64,000 nucleotides of DNA from Eubacterium limosum (GTDB lineage: Bacteria > Bacillota > Clostridia > Eubacteriales > Eubacteriaceae), in contig NZ_CP019962.1 of assembly GCF_000807675.2 (NCBI RefSeq), forward strand, positions 992,001 through 1,056,000. The letters are read 5' to 3'. The notes beneath the pieces are model-generated. The model had not been told where the DNA came from and made no database searches. It saw only the letters and a list, made by a program, of their open reading frames with translations. Both the position numbers and the translations under genes were made by a program. Each line of letters starts with the position of its first letter. Positions within the stretch are counted from its first letter, which is position 1. Shown piece by piece: positions 7,008 through 62,757 of the stretch.

Positions 7008-9347
7008 ATGAAAGAAAATGCGATTTGGATCTTTATTGAAAAAGAGGAGGAACAGATCAGGCGCGTGAGCCTTGAGCTTTTGTCCAAGGGAAAAAAGCTT
7101 AAGCACGAGGACAGCGAGCTGGTTGCTGTGGTTTTTGGCTATCTTTCCTGTGATATGACCACCGAGCTTTCAGGTTATGGAGCGGATATTATTTTAAATG
7201 TCCCGGGCGATGGCTATGAAATCTATGGTACCGACGCTTATACCGACGCGATGGAAGCCCTGATCCGGCGTTACACGCCGAATCTCCTGCTGGTGGGAGC
7301 GACCCACAATGGCCGTGACCTCTGTGGACGTCTGGCAACGCGTCTGGAGCTTGGCCTTGCGGCGGACTGCACAGAAATTGAGCTGGAAGCAAATAACGCC
7401 GCGACCTTTATCCGTCCGGCCTACGACGGTAAGGCGTTTGCCAAAATTACCATGGCAACACGTCCCCAGGTTGGCAGTGTCCACTCCGGTATTTTTGCCA
7501 AGGGCCTGCCAGTGGAAGGTTTGAAAGCTGAGGTAATCGAGGAAGACATTCCGATAAAGGAAAGCGCGCTGCGGGTGAAACTGCTGGAATACATCGAGGC
7601 TGCCTCAAAGGTCGTGGATGATCTGGAGGAAGCAGATATTGTGGTGGCTGGCGGACGCGGCCTTGGAGGCCCGGAAGGCTTTGCGGTCATTCGGGAGCTG
7701 GCAGACGCTCTGGGCGCTGCGGTCGGCGCATCGAAGCCAACGGTAGAGGATGGCTGGATTGACATAGAAAATCAGGTAGGCGTTACAGGTAAGCGAATCC
7801 ACCCGAAGCTTTATATTGCCTGCGGGATTTCCGGTGCGGTACAGCATACGATGGGCATGAAGGACTCGGATATTATTGTCGCCATCAACAACGACCCAGA
7901 GGCTCCTATCTTTAAAATTGCCCACTACTGTGTGGTTGGAGATTTGTTTGAGGTAGTTCCGGCGCTGACCGATCTGATTCGTGAAAAGCGCCAGCTCAGA
8001 TCGCCGGCAGAGCGGAAGCAGAATCCAACCGATACTCGGACGGCTTATTTTGAAGAAAAGACAGCCAAAAACCAGGAGCGCCAGACGACTGAAATTGGGA
8101 AGAAAGAAGAAAAAGCGGCGGTGCCTTTAGAAGAAGGTCCAAAGCGTGAGATTAAAAAGATTAATAGTGTTGATAAAACCCATGCGGACGAGGAGGAAGA
8201 AACCATGAATTTTGAACTGTCCAAGGAACATCAGGAGCTGCGTGAAATGTTCCGTGAATTTGCCCAGATGGAAGTAAAGCCCATTGCCAAAGATTTGGAT
8301 GAAAAGGAACGTTTTCCGGAAGAGACCATCCCCAAGCTGGCCGAAGCCGGTATGCTGGGGATCCCCTTCCCGGAAGAATACGGCGGAGCGGGTATGGATA
8401 ATCTGGCCTACGCCATGTGCGTCGAGGAAATTTCAAAGGTATGCGGTTCTACCGGGGTTATTATTTCAGCCCACACCTCCCTGTGTGCCTGGCCTATTTT
8501 TGCCTTTGGAACAGAGGAACAAAAGCGTAAATATCTGGTGCCGCTGGCGAAAGGTGAACACCTTGGAGCCTTTGGTTTAACGGAGCCGGGAGCAGGAACA
8601 GACGCGGCGGGACAAAAGACGACCGCTGTTCTTGAAGGTGACCACTATGTTTTGAACGGCAGCAAAATATTCATTACCAATGGCGGAAAAGCCGATACCT
8701 ATGTTATTTTTGCCATGACGGATATCACAAAGGGCAACCATGGTATCACCGCTTTTATTGTAGAAAAGGATTTTCCGGGTTTCTCCATCGGCAAAAAGCT
8801 GGATAAAATGGGAATCCGCGGTTCCTCCACAACTGAGCTGATCTTCAAGGACTGTATTGTGCCAAAGGAAAACCTGCTCGGTGAAGTTGGAAAGGGCTTT
8901 AAGATCGCCATGAAAACCCTGGACGGCGGGCGGATTGGCATTGCCTCACAGGCTCTGGGGCTGGCGCAGGGAGCCATTGATGAAACCATCCCTTACATCA
9001 AGGGCAGAGAACAGTTTGGACAGCCTCTGTCGGCTTTCCAGAATACCCAGTTCCAGCTGGCCAACATGATTGCCAAGGTAGAGGGCGCGCGCCTGCTGGT
9101 CTATCAGGCAGCCTGCGCGAAAGATGCGGGAAAACCCTATAATCATCTTGCCGCTTTAGCCAAGCTCGTCGCGTCAGAAGCAGCGAGAGACGTTACCTGC
9201 GAGGCCGTCCAGTTATTCGGCGGCTACGGCTTTACAAGGGACTACCCGGTAGAGCGAATGATGCGTGACGCCAAAATTACCGAGATCTATGAAGGCACCT
9301 CCGAAGTCCAGCGCATGGTCATTTCCAGCTGGGCGGGAGTTAAATGA
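7008..9347 (+). CDS. EtfA-acyl-CoA dehydrogenase fusion protein
   Basis: One uninterrupted 779-codon frame. Residues 1-330 are EtfA, with the C-terminal FAD-binding part [23 protein letters not shown] and [10 protein letters not shown]. Residues 335-399 are a charged linker rich in Glu, Lys, Arg and Gln. Residues 400-779 are a complete 380-residue acyl-CoA dehydrogenase with [23 protein letters not shown] and the catalytic Glu in YEGTSEVQ (residue 762). ETF and dehydrogenase are normally separate chains. AGGAGG at 8191-8196 lies eight bases before ATG 8205 (Met400), so free dehydrogenase may also be made. Lys243 (GASK) stands where most EtfA proteins have the flavin-contacting Arg (GASR). EtfA lacks the extra N-terminal ferredoxin domain of CarE-type subunits. 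The likely reaction is reduction of a short enoyl-CoA with NADH, perhaps with ferredoxin reduction; the substrate is unknown. Confidence 0.9.
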
Positions 9348-9490
9348 AGCTGAGTCCAGTTTTGTAAAGCAAAACTGGCAGCGAGTAAGGAGAGAGCAGC
9401 AGCGAACGAACGAGCGTAACGAAGCAAATGCCTTGTTTTGAAAAATATCAAAGAGGGAATCGAGTTTTTCTCAATAAAGACGCTGCTGCA
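9345..9490 (+). repeat. Stop-codon-anchored repeat R1, copy a
   Basis: Begins with the TGA stop of the fusion gene: TGAAGCTGAGTCCAGTTTTG, loop, CAAAACTGG, then GCGAGTAAGGAGAGAGC, a GCGAACGAACGAGCG-type stretch and a weaker second hairpin (TTGAAAAA / TTTTTCTCAA). Compared with the other copies (CCAATTTTG/CAAAATTGG) the first stem reads CCAGTTTTG/CAAAACTGG, a compensated base change. Confidence 0.8.
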
Positions 9491-19710: not shown

Positions 19711-19877
19711 GCTGTGTTTTTTCACGATAAAAGTGTGAATAGCCTGTGGAAATGGGGTATATATCATTTTTGGTGCAAATTTTTCCATGACTCGGGCAGA
19801 GTTTCTTCTTTACTAACAAAATAACAGATGGTATGATTATAAACAATACAGAAATCTTAAAAAAGGGAGTTCAAAAA

Positions 19878-20522
19878 ATGACCGGGGATTTATTGAAAGC
19901 ACATGTTCTGTCCAGCAAACTGATGACAGACATTGAAGATATCATGATTGAAGAATTCGGCCTGCCTGAAGGCCACATTGACATCGGCCTTTTTACCACC
20001 GATAATGAGGATATTGGCTATGTGGCCGCGGATGAAGCGACCAAAAAGGCCAATGTGCAGGTCTGCTATGCCAAATCGACCTACGGGGGACTTGGCTGTG
20101 CCTACGGCGGAGAAATGATCGGTATTATCTCAGGGCCATCCATCAGCGATGTTGAGAGCGGTCTGCGGACCATTACGCATTTCACCGAGCACAATGCTTG
20201 CCTGTTCAGCGCCCGTGAAGATGACGGTGTACAATTTTATGCACAGGTTATCTCAAAAATCGGCACTTACCTCGCAGAAGTTTGTGATCTGCCTGTTGGT
20301 TCATCTGTCGCCTATCTTGTCGGCCCTCCGCTGGAATCTATGATGGGCGTCGATGAAGCTCTGACAGCTGCTGACGTAGAGGTCGTAAAATTCTTTGGAC
20401 CGCCAACCGTCTCCAACCGCGGTGGCGCCATCGTGACCGGGACACAGTCTGCCTGTAAAACCGCCTGCATGGCCTTCGCCAAAATGGTCATGGACTGCGT
20501 CGAAGAACCCGTGGACTACTGA
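19878..20522 (+). CDS. EutL-like bacterial microcompartment shell protein
   Basis: A 214-residue protein starting MTGDLLKAHVLSSKLM; ATG 19878 has AAAAGGGAG upstream. Two tandem BMC-type halves can be traced (about residues 20-110 and 120-210), the second with SVAYLVGPPLESMMGVDEAL and PPTVSNRGGAIVTG. This is the pattern of EutL/PduB-type trimeric shell proteins whose central gated pore passes cofactors or substrates. No other shell proteins, ethanolamine or propanediol enzymes are nearby, so it is an orphan; the rest of a compartment may be elsewhere. Its stop codon is the first base triplet of the R1 repeat array. Confidence 0.82.
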   Translation: MTGDLLKAHVLSSKLMTDIEDIMIEEFGLPEGHIDIGLFTTDNEDIGYVAADEATKKANVQVCYAKSTYGGLGCAYGGEMIGIISGPSISDVESGLRTITHFTEHNACLFSAREDDGVQFYAQVISKIGTYLAEVCDLPVGSSVAYLVGPPLESMMGVDEALTAADVEVVKFFGPPTVSNRGGAIVTGTQSACKTACMAFAKMVMDCVEEPVDY

Positions 20523-20875
20523 AGCTGAGTCCAATTTTGAAAAACAAAATTGGCAGCGAGTAAGGAGAGAGCGACAGCGAACGGACGAGCGCAACGAAGC
20601 AAACGTCTTGTTTGAAAAAACTCTCCGAAGGAGGAATAAAGGTTTTTTCAAATAAAGACGAAGCCGTCCAATTTTGGAAAACAAAATTGGCAGCGAGTAA
20701 GGAGAGAGCGACAGCGAACGGACGAGCGCAACGAAGCAAACGTCTTGTTTGAAAAAACTCTCCGAAGGAGGAATAAAGGTTTTTTCAAATAAAGACGAAG
20801 CCGTCCAATTTTGGAAAACAAAATTGGCAGCGAGTAAGAAGAGAGCGACAGCGAACGGACGAGCGCAGCAACGTC
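20520..20875 (+). repeat. R1 repeat array: two full and one partial 137-bp units
   Basis: Starts at the shell-protein TGA with TGAAGCTGAGTCC. The TCCAATTTTG element recurs at 20530, 20667 and 20804, an exact 137-base period with near-identical sequence. Each unit holds hairpin 1 (CCAATTTTG/CAAAATTGG), a purine-rich GCGAGTAAGGAGAGAGCG tract, and hairpin 2 (CGTCTTGTTTGAAAAAAC pairing with GTTTTTTCAAATAAAGACG). The third unit stops before hairpin 2. No protein is encoded. Confidence 0.9.
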
Positions 20876-20907
20876 ATTCCTGTAATAAAAAATTCAAACG
20901 AACAAGA

Positions 20908-20936
20908 GACTCTGAGTTTTTATCAGAGTCTTTTTT
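20908..20936 (+). terminator. Intrinsic terminator after the R1 array
   Basis: GACTCTGA/TCAGAGTC 8-bp stem followed by T6; closes the shell-protein transcript, placing the array in its 3' untranslated region. Confidence 0.88.
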
Positions 20937-21000
20937 GTTCCCCAAATTCACAGAAAACCTGTTATAATAAAGATAATAAACAAGGAAGCGAGGGATAAAG

Positions 21001-21420
21001 ATGGCCTATACCATTACAGAAAAATGTATCGGATGCACGATCTGTGCGAGAAACTGTCCGGTGATGGCCATCACCGGTGAAAAGAAAAAGCAGCATGTGG
21101 TGAATGACAAGCGCTGTATCGACTGCGGCGTTTGCGGAAGATCCTGTCCACAGGCTGCCATTTTGGACAACAGAGGAGAGATCGCGAATAGAGTCCCAAA
21201 GGATCAATGGAAAAAACCAATGGTAGAACCAGCCGTGTGCAGTGCCTGCTCAATGTGCGTGGAAGGCTGCCGCTTTGAATGTCTGGCAATTTCGATGCCG
21301 GCTTTTAAAGGCGACATCCGCGTATACGCGGAACTGGTCAAACCAAGGGCCTGTGTGGGCTGCGGCCTGTGCGAAAGCCTGTGTCCTCTTTCAGCAATCC
21401 GCATGGAGGTGATTCAATGA
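21001..21420 (+). CDS. Polyferredoxin-type 4Fe-4S protein
   Basis: A 139-residue protein with four CxxCxxCxxxC sets: CIGCTICARNCP, CIDCGVCGRSCP, CSACSMCVEGC and CVGCGLCESLCP, so four [4Fe-4S] clusters are expected. It is the likely electron partner of the aldehyde oxidoreductase, whose ATG overlaps this stop codon (ATGA at 21417-21420), indicating translational coupling. A TATAAT box at 20963-20968 gives the probable operon promoter. A separate iron-sulfur subunit encoded just before aor resembles other multi-subunit AOR systems in acetogens. Confidence 0.9.
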   Translation: MAYTITEKCIGCTICARNCPVMAITGEKKKQHVVNDKRCIDCGVCGRSCPQAAILDNRGEIANRVPKDQWKKPMVEPAVCSACSMCVEGCRFECLAISMPAFKGDIRVYAELVKPRACVGCGLCESLCPLSAIRMEVIQ

Positions 21421-23309
21421 AGCCTTTGAATTATTTGCATATTAACCTGAGCACAGGTAAAATACGTCCGCTGCCCATCAAAGAAGGGGTTGTGAGGGCA
21501 TATCTTGGCGGTAAAACACTGGCAGCCAAGCTGCTTTATGATTTGCTGCCAAAGGGTGTGGAACCTTTGGCAAAAGAAAATATTCTGATCATCAACACAG
21601 GAATTATGACGGACACTGGCGCGCCCTCCTCCAGCCGTTTTAACATGACCTTTAAAAATGTGATGACTGGGGGCATCGCCTCATCCAACTGCGGAGGAAG
21701 CTTTGGGATGATGATGCGGCGCGCCGGAGTGGACGGGATTATTCTGGCAGGCGGAGCAGAAAAACCGGTATATCTGGAAATTCTGGACGGCGTGGTAACG
21801 ATCCGCGACGCAGAAAACCTGTGGGGGATGGATGCCGAGGCTGTTCAGGAACGCTTCCCCAAGGTTTATGGGAAAGTGGTCATCGGGCCAGCAGGGGAAA
21901 ATAAGGTGCGTTATGCCTGCGCTGTTTCAGGCGAACGGGTAGCCGGCCGGTGCGGCTGCGGCGCGGTAATGGGCGTTAAAAATTTGAAGGGGATTGTGGC
22001 TTATGGAACCAAACGGCCAGAGCTTTACAACAAACCAGCTTTTGACGCCTATGTAAAAAAGTGGGTGAAATTCATTCAGAATCATCCCATGACGGGTGAC
22101 AGCCTGCCCCATTACGGTACTGCAGGTCTTGTAAATAACGCCAATGCCTCACATGCGCTTCCAACCCATAATTTTAAACGGGGCCAGTTTGAGGCAGCGG
22201 AGGAAATCTGCGGGGAGACCCTTGCGGATAAGTACCTGACCCGAAACGGTGGCTGTGTGAGCTGTCCCATACGGTGTGAGCGGCGTGTGATGGTTGGCGG
22301 ACGCGAGGTAAAAGGGCCGGAGTTTGAAACCGTGGGTCTTTTTGGTTCAAATATTGAAAACAGCAATCTGGAATTGATCAATGAGATTAATTATAGAGCC
22401 GATATTCTGGGGATAGATACGATTTCGCTGGCGGGCACACTGGCCTTTGCCATGGAACTTCAGGAAAGGGGAATGGCAGACTTTGGACTCCACTTTGGGG
22501 AAACCGGCAACCTGCTGGAGATCATCGAAAAAATTGCGTATCGCCAGGACATCGGTGACGAGCTGGCAGAAGGCAGCGCCCGGCTGGCAAAAGAATACGG
22601 CGGGACTGATTTTGCCATCAACGCCAAGGGCATGGAACTGGCATCTTATGAGCCGCGGCGTTCAGTTGGCATGGGGCTTGGCTATGCGACCTCCAACCGC
22701 GGTGGCTGTCATCTGAATGGCGGCTATCTGGCGCTGATGGAATCAGTGGGTGTCATGAGCGTCGGTGCACAGGGAACAAAGGGAAAGCCTGAGCTCACCG
22801 CTTTTATGCAAAACGGCATGGAAGCCGGTTCGGCGGCAGGTTTCTGCCTGTTCACCATGCAGACCATGATCCCGTCGATTTTGTATCATATGGGGCCAGT
22901 CAGCCCGGTAACCCATACTGCGGGCAAGGCCATGATCATGGCCCGGGGGATTCTTGGAAATATGTGGCCTTTGATGCCGGGACTGCTGCCCGTTAAAACC
23001 ATGTATCTGATGCCGCACTGCAAGGCCATTGAACTGGCTACCGGCATGCGCATGACGACCGGAGAGTTCCTTCAGGTTGGTGAGCGTGGTTTTACCATTG
23101 AACGGCTCTTTAATCTGCGGGAAGGTTTGACTGCTGAGGATGACAGTCTGCCGGGCCGGCTGACGGACGAACTTCAGGAACCAGGTGATCCCAGCACCAG
23201 GGTAGATCTTGAAGCAATGCTTCCGGTATACTATAAGGTGAGGGGCTGGGATGAGCGCGGTGTGCCAACAGCCGCAACCCTCAAGCGTCTGGGGCTTGGA
23301 AGCTTATGA
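21417..23309 (+). CDS. aor: Tungsten aldehyde:ferredoxin oxidoreductase
   Basis: A 630-residue AOR family enzyme starting MKPLNYLHINLSTGKIRPLP. The N-terminal domain carries the pterin-binding region (SSRFNMTFKN, GIASSNCGGSFG). The cluster motif GGCVSCPIRC and later MGLGYATSNRGGCHLNGG follow the family pattern; length is normal. It interconverts aldehydes and carboxylic acids with ferredoxin, e.g. acetate to acetaldehyde in acetogens. The gene is coupled by 4-base overlaps to the ferredoxin gene before it and to a MoaD-like gene after it, consistent with dedicated electron transfer and cofactor supply. Substrate range is not evident. Confidence 0.92.
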   Translation: MKPLNYLHINLSTGKIRPLPIKEGVVRAYLGGKTLAAKLLYDLLPKGVEPLAKENILIINTGIMTDTGAPSSSRFNMTFKNVMTGGIASSNCGGSFGMMMRRAGVDGIILAGGAEKPVYLEILDGVVTIRDAENLWGMDAEAVQERFPKVYGKVVIGPAGENKVRYACAVSGERVAGRCGCGAVMGVKNLKGIVAYGTKRPELYNKPAFDAYVKKWVKFIQNHPMTGDSLPHYGTAGLVNNANASHALPTHNFKRGQFEAAEEICGETLADKYLTRNGGCVSCPIRCERRVMVGGREVKGPEFETVGLFGSNIENSNLELINEINYRADILGIDTISLAGTLAFAMELQERGMADFGLHFGETGNLLEIIEKIAYRQDIGDELAEGSARLAKEYGGTDFAINAKGMELASYEPRRSVGMGLGYATSNRGGCHLNGGYLALMESVGVMSVGAQGTKGKPELTAFMQNGMEAGSAAGFCLFTMQTMIPSILYHMGPVSPVTHTAGKAMIMARGILGNMWPLMPGLLPVKTMYLMPHCKAIELATGMRMTTGEFLQVGERGFTIERLFNLREGLTAEDDSLPGRLTDELQEPGDPSTRVDLEAMLPVYYKVRGWDERGVPTAATLKRLGLGSL

Positions 23310-23554
23310 TTACGGTGAAATATTTCGGAGCGCTGAGGGCATTAACCGGCACAGCGCAGGAGAGTCTTGAGGCGGCAGATATTAAAGAGGTGCTGGTAAA
23401 AATAAAAGCCGCCCATGGGAAAGAGGCGGCAGCGAAAGCCAGGCGGTGTCTGATCCTGCTGAACAGCGATAATGTCAATCTGCACAACGGCATGCGGACA
23501 AGCCTGAAAATTGGCGATGTCGTCAGTTTCGTCCCCGTCTGCGCGGGAGGCTGA
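23306..23554 (+). CDS. MoaD/ThiS family sulfur carrier
   Basis: An 82-residue ubiquitin-fold protein ending in the Gly-Gly required for thiocarboxylate formation (CAGG). It begins MITVKYFGALRALTG, and overlaps the aor stop by four bases. MoaD-like proteins bring sulfur into the dithiolene of molybdopterin, the tungsten ligand in AOR, so the placement makes biochemical sense. The TGA stop is the first triplet of R1 copy e; a second in-frame TGA follows two codons later. Confidence 0.9.
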   Translation: MITVKYFGALRALTGTAQESLEAADIKEVLVKIKAAHGKEAAAKARRCLILLNSDNVNLHNGMRTSLKIGDVVSFVPVCAGG

Positions 23555-23642
23555 AGCTGAGTCCAATTTTGAAAAACAAAATTGGCAGCGAGTAAGGAGG
23601 AGCGACAGCGAACGGACGAGCGCAACGAAGCAAACGTCAGCT
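23552..23642. repeat. R1 repeat, copy e, between convergent stops
   Basis: Spans exactly from the moaD TGA to the stop region of the minus-strand Fe-S gene: TGAAGCTGAGTCC, hairpin CCAATTTTG/CAAAATTGG, GAGTAAGGAGGAGCG, CGAGCGCAACGAAGC, ACGTCAGCT. AGCTGA at 23555-23560 and TCAGCT at 23637-23642 are terminal inverted repeats, and the TCA is the reverse complement of the neighbour's TGA stop. The second hairpin seen in other copies is absent. Confidence 0.88.
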
Positions 23643-28864: not shown

Positions 28865-29486
28865 AGAACTGCTTTTAACCAGTCTGCCGCCGATGTTTAT
28901 TTTTATGTTCTTTGGCGCCATGCTGATGATTCCTGGATATCCCTATTATGTTCCGTTTTTCTTTGGCTGCCTTGGGCTTTTCTTTACCTTTCAAAACGGG
29001 CGCGAAAACAAGGATACCTTTTATACCGCAGCGCTGCCCATCTCAAAGGGAGATGTTGTCAGGGCAAGATGCCTTCTGGTAGTGCTGGTGGAGCTTGGCG
29101 AGGTGCTTATCTCTGTTCCCTTCGCGGTTCTGCGGGCGTATGTGCTGCCGCCGAATCCGGTAGGGATTGAGCCGAATCCTGCATTTTATGGCTTTGTATT
29201 GATCATGTTTACCATTTTTAACGTGATATTCCTGACACAGTTTTATAAAACAGCCTACAATGTTGGAAAAGCTTTTGTCATAGCGCAGATCCCTCTGTGG
29301 CTGTATATTATTGTGATGGAAGCCCTGGTGCATTTTCCGGTGCCCGGTACATATCTGGATACTACCAACCCATCTATGATGCTGAGACAGCTGCCGATTC
29401 TGGCAGCCGGAGTCGTAATTTACATATTGGGAATGTTGGTGGCCTGCCGTGTTTCCATTCGGCGGTTTGAAAAAGTTGATTTGTAG
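28842..29486 (+). CDS. ABC-2 type transporter permease
   Basis: A 214-residue membrane protein with six hydrophobic segments: MMRALLYKELLLTSLPP leads into the first helix, and the motif NGRENKDTFYTAALPISKGDVVRAR is the cytoplasmic loop typical of ABC-2 permeases. It partners the upstream ATPase. Start taken at 28842, with AAAGGAAAAAA upstream and overlap with the ATPase gene; ATG 28845 is equally possible. Substrate unknown. Confidence 0.85.
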   Translation: MMRALLYKELLLTSLPPMFIFMFFGAMLMIPGYPYYVPFFFGCLGLFFTFQNGRENKDTFYTAALPISKGDVVRARCLLVVLVELGEVLISVPFAVLRAYVLPPNPVGIEPNPAFYGFVLIMFTIFNVIFLTQFYKTAYNVGKAFVIAQIPLWLYIIVMEALVHFPVPGTYLDTTNPSMMLRQLPILAAGVVIYILGMLVACRVSIRRFEKVDL

Positions 29487-29526
29487 AATAATGGGTAATG
29501 AACGAAAGGCACGAGCCCTTCGTTTC

Positions 29527-29762
29527 AAACTGCCAAAAGTGCCGCGGCTTGAGACTGCGCCTTTTATCCAGATAAGAAAAAAAGTTCAGGCGCTTTGAAT
29601 AACGGCCAGAAATCGTGTAAAATTATCCGCCCAGCCGGACACTGGCGAGATGAAGTATCAACTTTAGTGAAACAGATATCGGTGTGAGGGCAGTGCCCGC
29701 AGAACGTTTTTTTCTTTCTTAGGTAAAAGGCTTCGTCTCTCAAGTTTTTTATACAGACTGTA
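29527..29762 (+). ncRNA. Candidate structured RNA R2, copy A
   Basis: The 359-base gap before the DUF3795 gene contains a segment highly similar to 62524-62757: shared blocks GAGACTGCGCC, CTTTTATCCAGATAAG, AACGGCCAG, GCCGGACACTGG, GAGATGAAG, ACTTTAGT, GAGGGC-GTGCCCGCAG, and TTAGGTAAAAGGCTTCGTC. Hairpins TTATC-CA-GATAA and GGGC-AGT-GCCC are conserved. No conserved frame is evident, so an RNA or a mobile repeat is more likely than a gene. Strand chosen from hairpins ending in T-rich runs; it is not proven. Confidence 0.5.
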
Positions 29763-29845
29763 AAAAGATTGACAGAAGCCTTTAGTTCCGTTATGCTGGG
29801 TTTAAAGAAGCCATTTGTTCCACGAATCCTTAAGGAGGGAATATC

Positions 29846-30139
29846 ATGAAAGAAATCATCAGTTGCTGCGGCGTTGTCTGTACAAGCTGTGAGTATTACC
29901 CTGAAACCTGTCCGGGCTGTCCAGCCATTGAGGGGAAAGCTTTCTGGCTTGAGTATACCGGAGGAGATATCTGCGGTATTTATGAATGCTGTATTCTTGA
30001 GAGGAAAAAGCCTCATTGTGGAAAATGCGGAGAGCTGCCCTGCCACCGCTATTTCGATACACCAGATCCTACCAAGACCCCAGAGGAAAACAAAGCGGAC
30101 TTCAGAAGACAGATGGAACAGCTCAAAAGGATGGGATAG
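29846..30139 (+). CDS. DUF3795 cysteine-rich protein
   Basis: A 97-residue protein with 13 cysteines: CCGVVCTSCEYYPETCPGCP, then CGIYECC, and CGKCGELPCHRY. This is the DUF3795 pattern, probably binding zinc or iron-sulfur; function unknown. AAGGAGGG before ATG. The GNAT gene begins two bases after its stop, implying an operon. Confidence 0.85.
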   Translation: MKEIISCCGVVCTSCEYYPETCPGCPAIEGKAFWLEYTGGDICGIYECCILERKKPHCGKCGELPCHRYFDTPDPTKTPEENKADFRRQMEQLKRMG

Positions 30140-62523: not shown

Positions 62524-62757
62524 GGCTGTCAAAGAAGTGGCGCAGCCCGAGACTGCGCCTTTTATCCAGATAAGCAAAAAGGTCCAGGCACTGCGGTAAA
62601 CGGCCAGGAACCGTGTCGCACGACTGGAATAGCCGGACACTGGTGAGATGAAGCGTCCACTTTAGTAAAAAAGCTGTCCCTGTGAGGGCGGTGCCCGCAG
62701 GACGCTTTTTCTTCCTTAGGTAAAAGGCTTCGTCGCTCTGGTTTTTTGACACGCTGG
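62524..62757 (+). ncRNA. Candidate structured RNA R2, copy B
   Basis: Second copy of the segment at 29527-29762. It closes with TGTCAAA (62527-62533) pairing TTTGACA (62745-62751). Inside: GGCGCAG/CTGCGCC, TTATC/GATAA, CGTG/CACG, AAGCGTCC (62651) with GGACGCTT (62700), and GGGC/GCCC. Fills most of the lpdA-gcvH gap. No protein frame is shared by the copies beyond about 10 residues. Confidence 0.55.

Follow-up and report, generated by a model that had tools for sequence, protein, structure and literature searches.

Why does a repeat begin, to the base, at the stop codons of unrelated genes? The question is raised by a 64,000-nucleotide (nt) stretch of Eubacterium limosum DNA (the window; G000:C1:992001-1056000, G000 being the host genome, one contig of 4,422,837 bases). 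Scanning the whole window for TGAAGCTGAGTCC without mismatch, we found it at 9345, 20520 and 23552 only. In all three cases its first TGA is the stop codon of an open reading frame (ORF), and the three ORFs encode different proteins: an EtfA/acyl-CoA dehydrogenase fusion, the shell protein EutL and a MoaD-family protein. The original prediction held that such junctions were improbable by chance, and that the repeat sits exactly at stops either because it targets them or because it has become a standard module of the 3' untranslated region. We report that the exact junction has genome-wide support and that the repeat is a structured element of about 130-145 nt whose 5' end usually coincides with the end of whichever functional unit precedes it.

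A covariance model gave 50 matches in the host genome at E<=10, 45 of them at E<=0.01, in 31 places. We dropped four weak or fragmentary matches (627198, 2631471, 3255478 and 3846904) and compared first or single copies with the stops of mechanically called ORFs of at least 80 amino acids (aa), taking the expected number of flush copies from how densely such stops occur in the loci concerned. Twenty-one of 31 copies were flush with an ORF stop and in frame, where 0.067 were expected; hence chance is improbable, as had been argued from three copies, and most copies lie on a stop and in frame rather than away from stops. The offset (d) was 1 in 20 copies and 0 in one TAG case. All flush copies were in sense to the upstream gene, and their stops in the host genome were TGA (16), TAA (4) and TAG (1). 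When four species were pooled, 48 of 84 copies were flush (0.18 expected), many of them orthologous and not independent; in other genera the count was 8 of 37. Stop distances in the four species were 0 or 1 in these 48 cases. Within 60 nt we otherwise saw one copy each at -7, -18 and -27, three at -60, four at +6 and two at +20; a copy at -23 (4119087) was missed in this tally, its ORF being 75 aa.

Perhaps copies landed at random in short intergenic gaps, and selection against disruption and deletion of spacers did the rest, with no targeting? Bacterial intergenic gaps are indeed short, and at 1213922 the site without the element leaves a single base ahead of the following start codon. However, flush positions dominate over the few scattered ones, and the 3' side is not flush. 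A control repeat of the same genome (about 214 nt, 43 matches) also behaved differently: 0 of 22 copies were flush, with the nearest stops 34-335 nt upstream or inside. The 5' boundary of the control is not established; 12 of the 22 copies have a stop 34-63 nt upstream, and in one (L278) an ORF stop falls 4 nt into the copy. Exact flushness is therefore no general habit of this genome's repeats, and we consider random insertion improbable.

The genes involved are diverse. At least 24 distinct protein genes, told apart by ORF length and C terminus, carry a flush copy, 20 of them in the host genome. Those annotated, 20 in all, encode RlmH, DnaA, GyrB, RpsG, EF-G, EF-Tu, PyrI, RplJ, a second EF-G, RNase Y, EutL, the MoaD-family protein, GlpK, a related FGGY kinase, the EtfA/acyl-CoA dehydrogenase fusion and a HAD hydrolase. 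The rest of the 20 matched under the curated cut-offs (phosphoglycerate kinase-like, YjbM-like GTP diphosphokinase, glutamate-synthase-like and MacB-like). The four outside the host genome encode proteins of 446, 259, 321 and 160 aa.

Are stop codons the only junctions? The copy at 1369846 starts directly behind the CCA of tRNA-Tyr, with no gap. Seven tRNA-Tyr junctions (genus g2, two of the seven from g1) are gapless by ARAGORN. The element-free tRNA-Tyr genes listed encode CCA too, so that an encoded CCA does not tell filled from empty sites as a sign of insertion from mature tRNA. Copies at 1441060 and 3309764 lie behind terminator hairpins with T-runs, and that at 2630853 lies behind TGGTATAATG, which resembles an extended -10 promoter and is kept in four species. 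At 1369631 the element is within the leader of a tRNA operon, at 2766804 the gene's stop occupies element positions 4-6, and in genome G002 copies occupy the spacer between 23S and 5S, starting 50 nt past 23S in the two loci checked. The stop-codon rule thus stands as the core pattern but was drawn too narrowly, since tRNA-Tyr CCA ends, terminator T-runs and a -10 box adjoin the element as well. We conclude that the element usually begins exactly where the functional unit before it ends, be that at a stop codon, a tRNA CCA, a terminator T-run or a -10 box. We know of no dispersed structured repeat, common as these are in bacteria, that is base-exact at the stops of more than 20 unrelated genes and at tRNA ends.

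Two arrangements at such sites deserve mention. The copy at 2630853 opens a three-unit array (2630853-2631289; L085 3354) that is possibly a free-standing RNA gene made of element units. Behind tRNA-Tyr in g2, three loci (L251, L261 and L263) contain a tRNA-like sequence (GACCCATTAGCTCAGTTGGTA...), with other sequence apparently breaking it up.

What is the element itself? A first alignment of 13 copies (A1), not fitted to any structure, was the basis of a consensus: a stem P0, in which GCT and GT, split by GA, pair with AC-GA-AGC; a hairpin P1; and a P2 with the same GA/GA pattern. Double changes were seen in 11 of 17 pairs already in A1. A second alignment (A2) holds 139 copies (135 distinct) from 94 loci of the host genome and relatives; it was fitted to the structure of model R1 and hence is biased toward it. 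In A2, 96.9% of cells were paired, compared with 79.0% in shuffles and 23-49% when slid, and 422 cells were changed on both sides compared with 123 shuffled, such change occurring in 17 of 17 pairs. Both alignments show compensatory base changes beyond chance, as structured RNA does. The P0 variants GCTGAGT/ACGAAGC, GTTTTGT/ACAAAAC and GTTTTTGT/ACAAAAAC illustrate this. The 3' 66 nt (P3) folded with a median z of -4.4 in 131 distinct copies, and z was below -2 in 117 of them. We conclude that the element has a three-way core (closing stem P0, P1, and P2 with tandem G-A steps) plus a 3' hairpin, P3.

Tandem units are frequent and alike within an array, as in the four units at 4397296-4397811. 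The part of P0 flush with the gene end (P0a) was fully paired in 101 of 114 first or single copies versus 9 of 25 trailing tandem copies, the latter few and related, while P1 and P2 were intact in both classes. The stem beside the gene end is therefore the one that is kept.

The structure also settles the status of a second stop codon. TGA-AGC-TGA, proposed as a tandem in-frame stop, is present in all three window copies, in 15 of 21 flush copies of the host genome and in 32 of 48 in the four species. It is incidental rather than defining: the variants GCCGAG and GTTTTTG lack the second stop and still keep the base pairing of that P0 strand. We rejected the second stop as a function, as it is absent from 6 of 21 flush copies. 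A bacterial selenocysteine insertion sequence was also ruled out, because TAA and TAG also serve as stops and the orthologous genes finish at the very same codon. As for the copy at 23552, it extends as far as the opposing stop, but its apparent terminal inverted repeat, AGCTGA/TCAGCT, is a local coincidence; this copy simply has no 3' hairpin. No other copy among the listed ends finishes so, and Eubacterium callanderi has TCAGCC at that place.

Could the element itself create the gene ends by bringing its own TGA and truncating or re-ending the genes where it lands? For 18 of the 31 places we compared the orthologous gene end in up to three congeners (35 regions), and found both element-free and reduced gene ends. 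About 9 of the 35 regions carried remnants and the rest looked empty, judged by eye. Among the remnants, L225 has an internal deletion, and in L215 and L229 the TAACGAAGC of the element now serves as the stop. Stop codons of the 35 orthologues were TAA (20), TGA (11) and TAG (4), in contrast to TGA at 16 of 21 filled genes, and the element contains the stop in the case of 4146955 and of a 501-aa gene found in genera g4 and g6. These observations fit a self-made stop. However, 17 of the 18 genes terminate at the same codon position in every orthologue compared, whether the copy there is reduced or missing: the end is ancestral and only the letters of the stop change. The element therefore makes no new gene ends. 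As a general explanation we regard self-made ends as refuted, and as the main reason for the pattern as very improbable. At the element-free gene ends L196, L202, L226 and L230 another repeat, GAGAATTGAGAATTG...CAATTCTCCATT or GTTGATAGTTGATAG, stands close behind the stop.

How are the copies inherited? With 23 locus groups set by hand, same-site copies across species were 0.84 identical (51 pairs), compared with 0.55 for different sites (458 pairs within and 1202 between genomes). Some sites depart from this. In genome G003 the EutL and phosphoglycerate kinase-like sites carry an unrelated subtype at the same base, with identities to the orthologous copies of 0.48-0.49 and 0.53-0.55, no more than unrelated copies share. 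The MoaD-site copies of G000 and G002 are 0.60 identical, and within G002 the EutL and MoaD copies resemble each other (0.89). Between genera, a copy is flush with the EF-Tu gene end in both g1 and g2, and in g4 one lies 2 nt past the stop; the tRNA-Tyr position is common to g1 and g2, though the sequences differ. We conclude that inheritance within the genus is mostly vertical, with losses, and that some sites were reoccupied by a different subtype. The copies at the two EF-Tu genes of the host genome (L078 5698 and 7252, L080 7968) appear to be the same in sequence, and gene conversion spanning the entire 3' end is the probable reason.

Reoccupied sites raise another explanation: a small non-autonomous mobile RNA or DNA that is joined to gene ends on insertion, recognizing functional RNA ends (mRNA stop, tRNA CCA, terminator U-tract), its structure serving mobility and not the host. 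We take this to be a serious rival as the main reason for the pattern, and quite possible, though we would not bet on it. In 21 filled/empty pairs the 5' junction is exact and the 3' junction variable. Identity resumes behind the nominal 3' end by 6 nt at 4400171 (109/113), 8 nt at 2505752 (60/62), 18 nt at 1240925 (102/102) and 53 nt at 1213922 (67/67). At 1240925 (rpsG) three congeners share one element-free version, which makes it the best candidate for a gain and suggests a recent one. The different subtypes at the G003 sites and the similar neighboring copies of G002 also fit mobility. TG precedes position 1 in 6 of 10 non-flush copies too, so the TGA is probably the element's own, replacing the ancestral stop in place.

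Against mobility, the gap between same-site and between-site identity indicates that movement is rare, and at most sites gain and loss are indistinguishable. Neither the -10 box copy nor the antisense copies before 23S 5' ends adjoin RNA 3' ends. By eye, among the listed ends and the 21 pairs, we noticed no inverted terminal repeats or target duplications, no dedicated search having been made. The host genome gave 0 matches to the reverse transcriptase family PF00078 at E<=1e-5 (the control set matched 3 of 14), and one query each of plasmids, phages and viral contigs gave no match. Insertion scattered in both orientations, a trait of miniature inverted-repeat transposable elements (MITEs), is not what we saw, 48 of 84 copies being at one exact sense position relative to the stop. 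A more specific claim is that a propagating RNA or DNA element homes base-exactly to stop codons, tRNA CCA and terminator T-runs whatever the local sequence, its own TGA replacing the ancestral stop. We think this conceivable but doubtful; we know of no element that targets the ends of transcription units.

The explanation we favor, tentatively and at slightly under an even chance, is a functional gene-end module: an Eubacteriaceae-specific family of cis-acting structured RNA modules. Four features argue for a function in cis: the structure, the orientation in sense, the way copies stay at one base position across genera, and the preferential upkeep of the gene-end stem. A mechanism that joins the element to gene ends is in turn suggested by the exact 5' junction, the varying 3' junction and the sites that were reoccupied. 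The two are not exclusive, and both can hold. As a module, the element RNA would form a gene-end boundary, where it would direct cleavage by an RNase or hold up exonucleases between the coding RNA upstream and the sequence behind it. P0, starting about two bases behind the stop, would lie inside the stretch covered by a terminating ribosome, and its fold could report the translation state of the upstream gene. Selection for P0 behind the gene end, together with some means of spreading, may keep the 5' junction exact.

Several observations weigh against such a module. Many orthologues are without a copy, which they lost or never had, so the element is dispensable. Some flush copies come last in an operon, just 5' of a terminator (4400171, 2505752 and 1244751). 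The copy at 4146955 starts two codons 5' of the ancestral stop, with the end of its ORF falling within the element; that at 4119087 is 23 nt behind a TAG stop; at 1124534 and 1317760 we recognized no unit ending at the junction. In g2, tRNA-Asp junctions have a gap of 1-4 nt, and antisense copies, seen there only beside 23S genes, lie 3 nt before the 23S 5' end. Because copies at T-runs, the -10 box, tRNAs and rRNAs have no stop codon, ribosome sensing cannot be general. The antisense 23S copies at L176, L177, L181 and L182 might pair with sense sequences 3' of 23S into a processing stem.

If the gene-end module is real, its presence at rpsG-fusA-tuf, rplJ, dnaA and gyrB would mean a new layer of posttranscriptional control in gas-fermentation acetogens. 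If instead the element finds stop codons, the targeting principle would be new. The numerous filled, reduced and empty congeneric sites make both testable.

Is the family known under another name? No paper listed in our literature searches showed it. Like the REP/BIME and RAYT-linked repeats of Gammaproteobacteria, it is short, structured, dispersed, intergenic, often in 3' regions, and clustered. Unlike them, it is a multistem RNA of 130-145 nt with a covarying closing stem, one orientation and an exact 5' stop junction. The TAACTGA direct repeats of Beggiatoaceae are likewise intergenic and contain stop codons; they differ in being described as tandem heptamers with no particular RNA structure predicted, mostly toward the downstream start codon. 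RU elements are described as MITE-like (PMC2759123).

Repeats of 100-170 nt with RNA-like secondary structure include the bcr1 type of the Bacillus cereus group, BOX and RUP of pneumococcus, and RU and ERIC of enterobacteria. These are described as MITE-like, with terminal repeats and/or target duplications, in contrast to our element, in which none were noticed by eye; we know of no exact stop-codon rule for any of them. Self-cleaving ribozymes such as the hepatitis delta virus (HDV)-like and hatchet classes offer a possible analogy, being compact multistem RNAs whose 5' boundary is the end of the upstream RNA. Unlike these, the element matched no Rfam ribozyme family at E<=5 in ten loci, and it would be a novelty for the upstream RNA to end in a stop codon or CCA. 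Rfam 15 gave 0 matches at gathering threshold in the window and, at E<=5 in the ten loci, none on the element except chance small nucleolar RNA-type matches far below gathering score. In the same scan a T-box adjoined the L023 copy.

The distribution is narrow. Within the genus, 4 of 5 genomes had matches, and across the family Eubacteriaceae 23 of 40; the order outside the family gave 0 of 27, and a class sample 3 of 291 (11 candidates scored per genome), those three all in Eubacteriaceae; models R1 and R2 were built mostly from the host genus, and distant forms may escape them. A pattern scan of genome contigs returned four E. callanderi stretches; one metagenome-assembled stretch (L121) proved a chance match. 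The exact 10-mer AGCTGAGTCC occurs 16 times in the host genome, 10 of them within the repeat family.

Features of the three window copies are collected in Table 1. An intrinsic-terminator-like hairpin lies at about 20908-20937, 3' of the truncated third unit behind EutL.

Table 1. Element copies in the window and the genes they adjoin (window positions)
Feature	Position	Strand	Details
EtfA/acyl-CoA dehydrogenase fusion ORF	7008-9347		779 aa
TGA stop of this ORF	9345-9347	+	Final A is element position 1
Single full-length element (P0, P1, P2, P3)	9347-9482	+	Covariance model, G000:C1:1001347-1001482, E 2.3e-19
EutL shell-protein ORF	19833-20522		229 aa
TGA stop of EutL ORF	20520-20522	+	
EutL array unit 1 of about 2.5, flush with EutL stop	20522-20660	+	Covariance model E 1.7e-22; 137-nt tandem period
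P0 5' strand GCT, unit 1	20524-20526	+	Pairs with AGC 20598-20600 (consensus structure, compensatory changes)
P0 inner pairs, unit 1	GT 20529-20530 with AC 20594-20595	+	GA/GA in between
P1 hairpin, unit 1	20531-20553	+	CCAATTTTG / CAAAATTGG
P2, unit 1	20556-20590	+	GC 20556-20557 and GT 20560-20561 pair with AC 20585-20586 and GC 20589-20590, around GA/GA
P3, long imperfect 3' hairpin, unit 1	20605-20659	+	Fold of this copy (L004)
EutL array unit 2	20661-20797	+	P0 5' strand shortened (AAGCCGTCC)
EutL array unit 3, truncated	20798-20867	+	Covariance model E 3.4e-8
MoaD-family ORF	23306-23554		82 aa
TGA stop of MoaD-family ORF	23552-23554	+	
Element without P3 (P0, P1, P2 only)	23554-23638	+	Fills gap between two convergent stops
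TGA stop of opposing 64-aa ORF	23637-23639	-	TCA on + strand

The control repeat of about 214 nt (core GAGACTGCGCCTTTTATCCAGATAAG) is itself present in the window, at 29537-29750 and 62535-62747; the region 29400-29900 had no Rfam match at E<=1. A further copy, G000:C1:2631295-2631493, sits in P3 of the third unit of the 2630853 array, so that the 214-nt family has there inserted into the stop-flush one.

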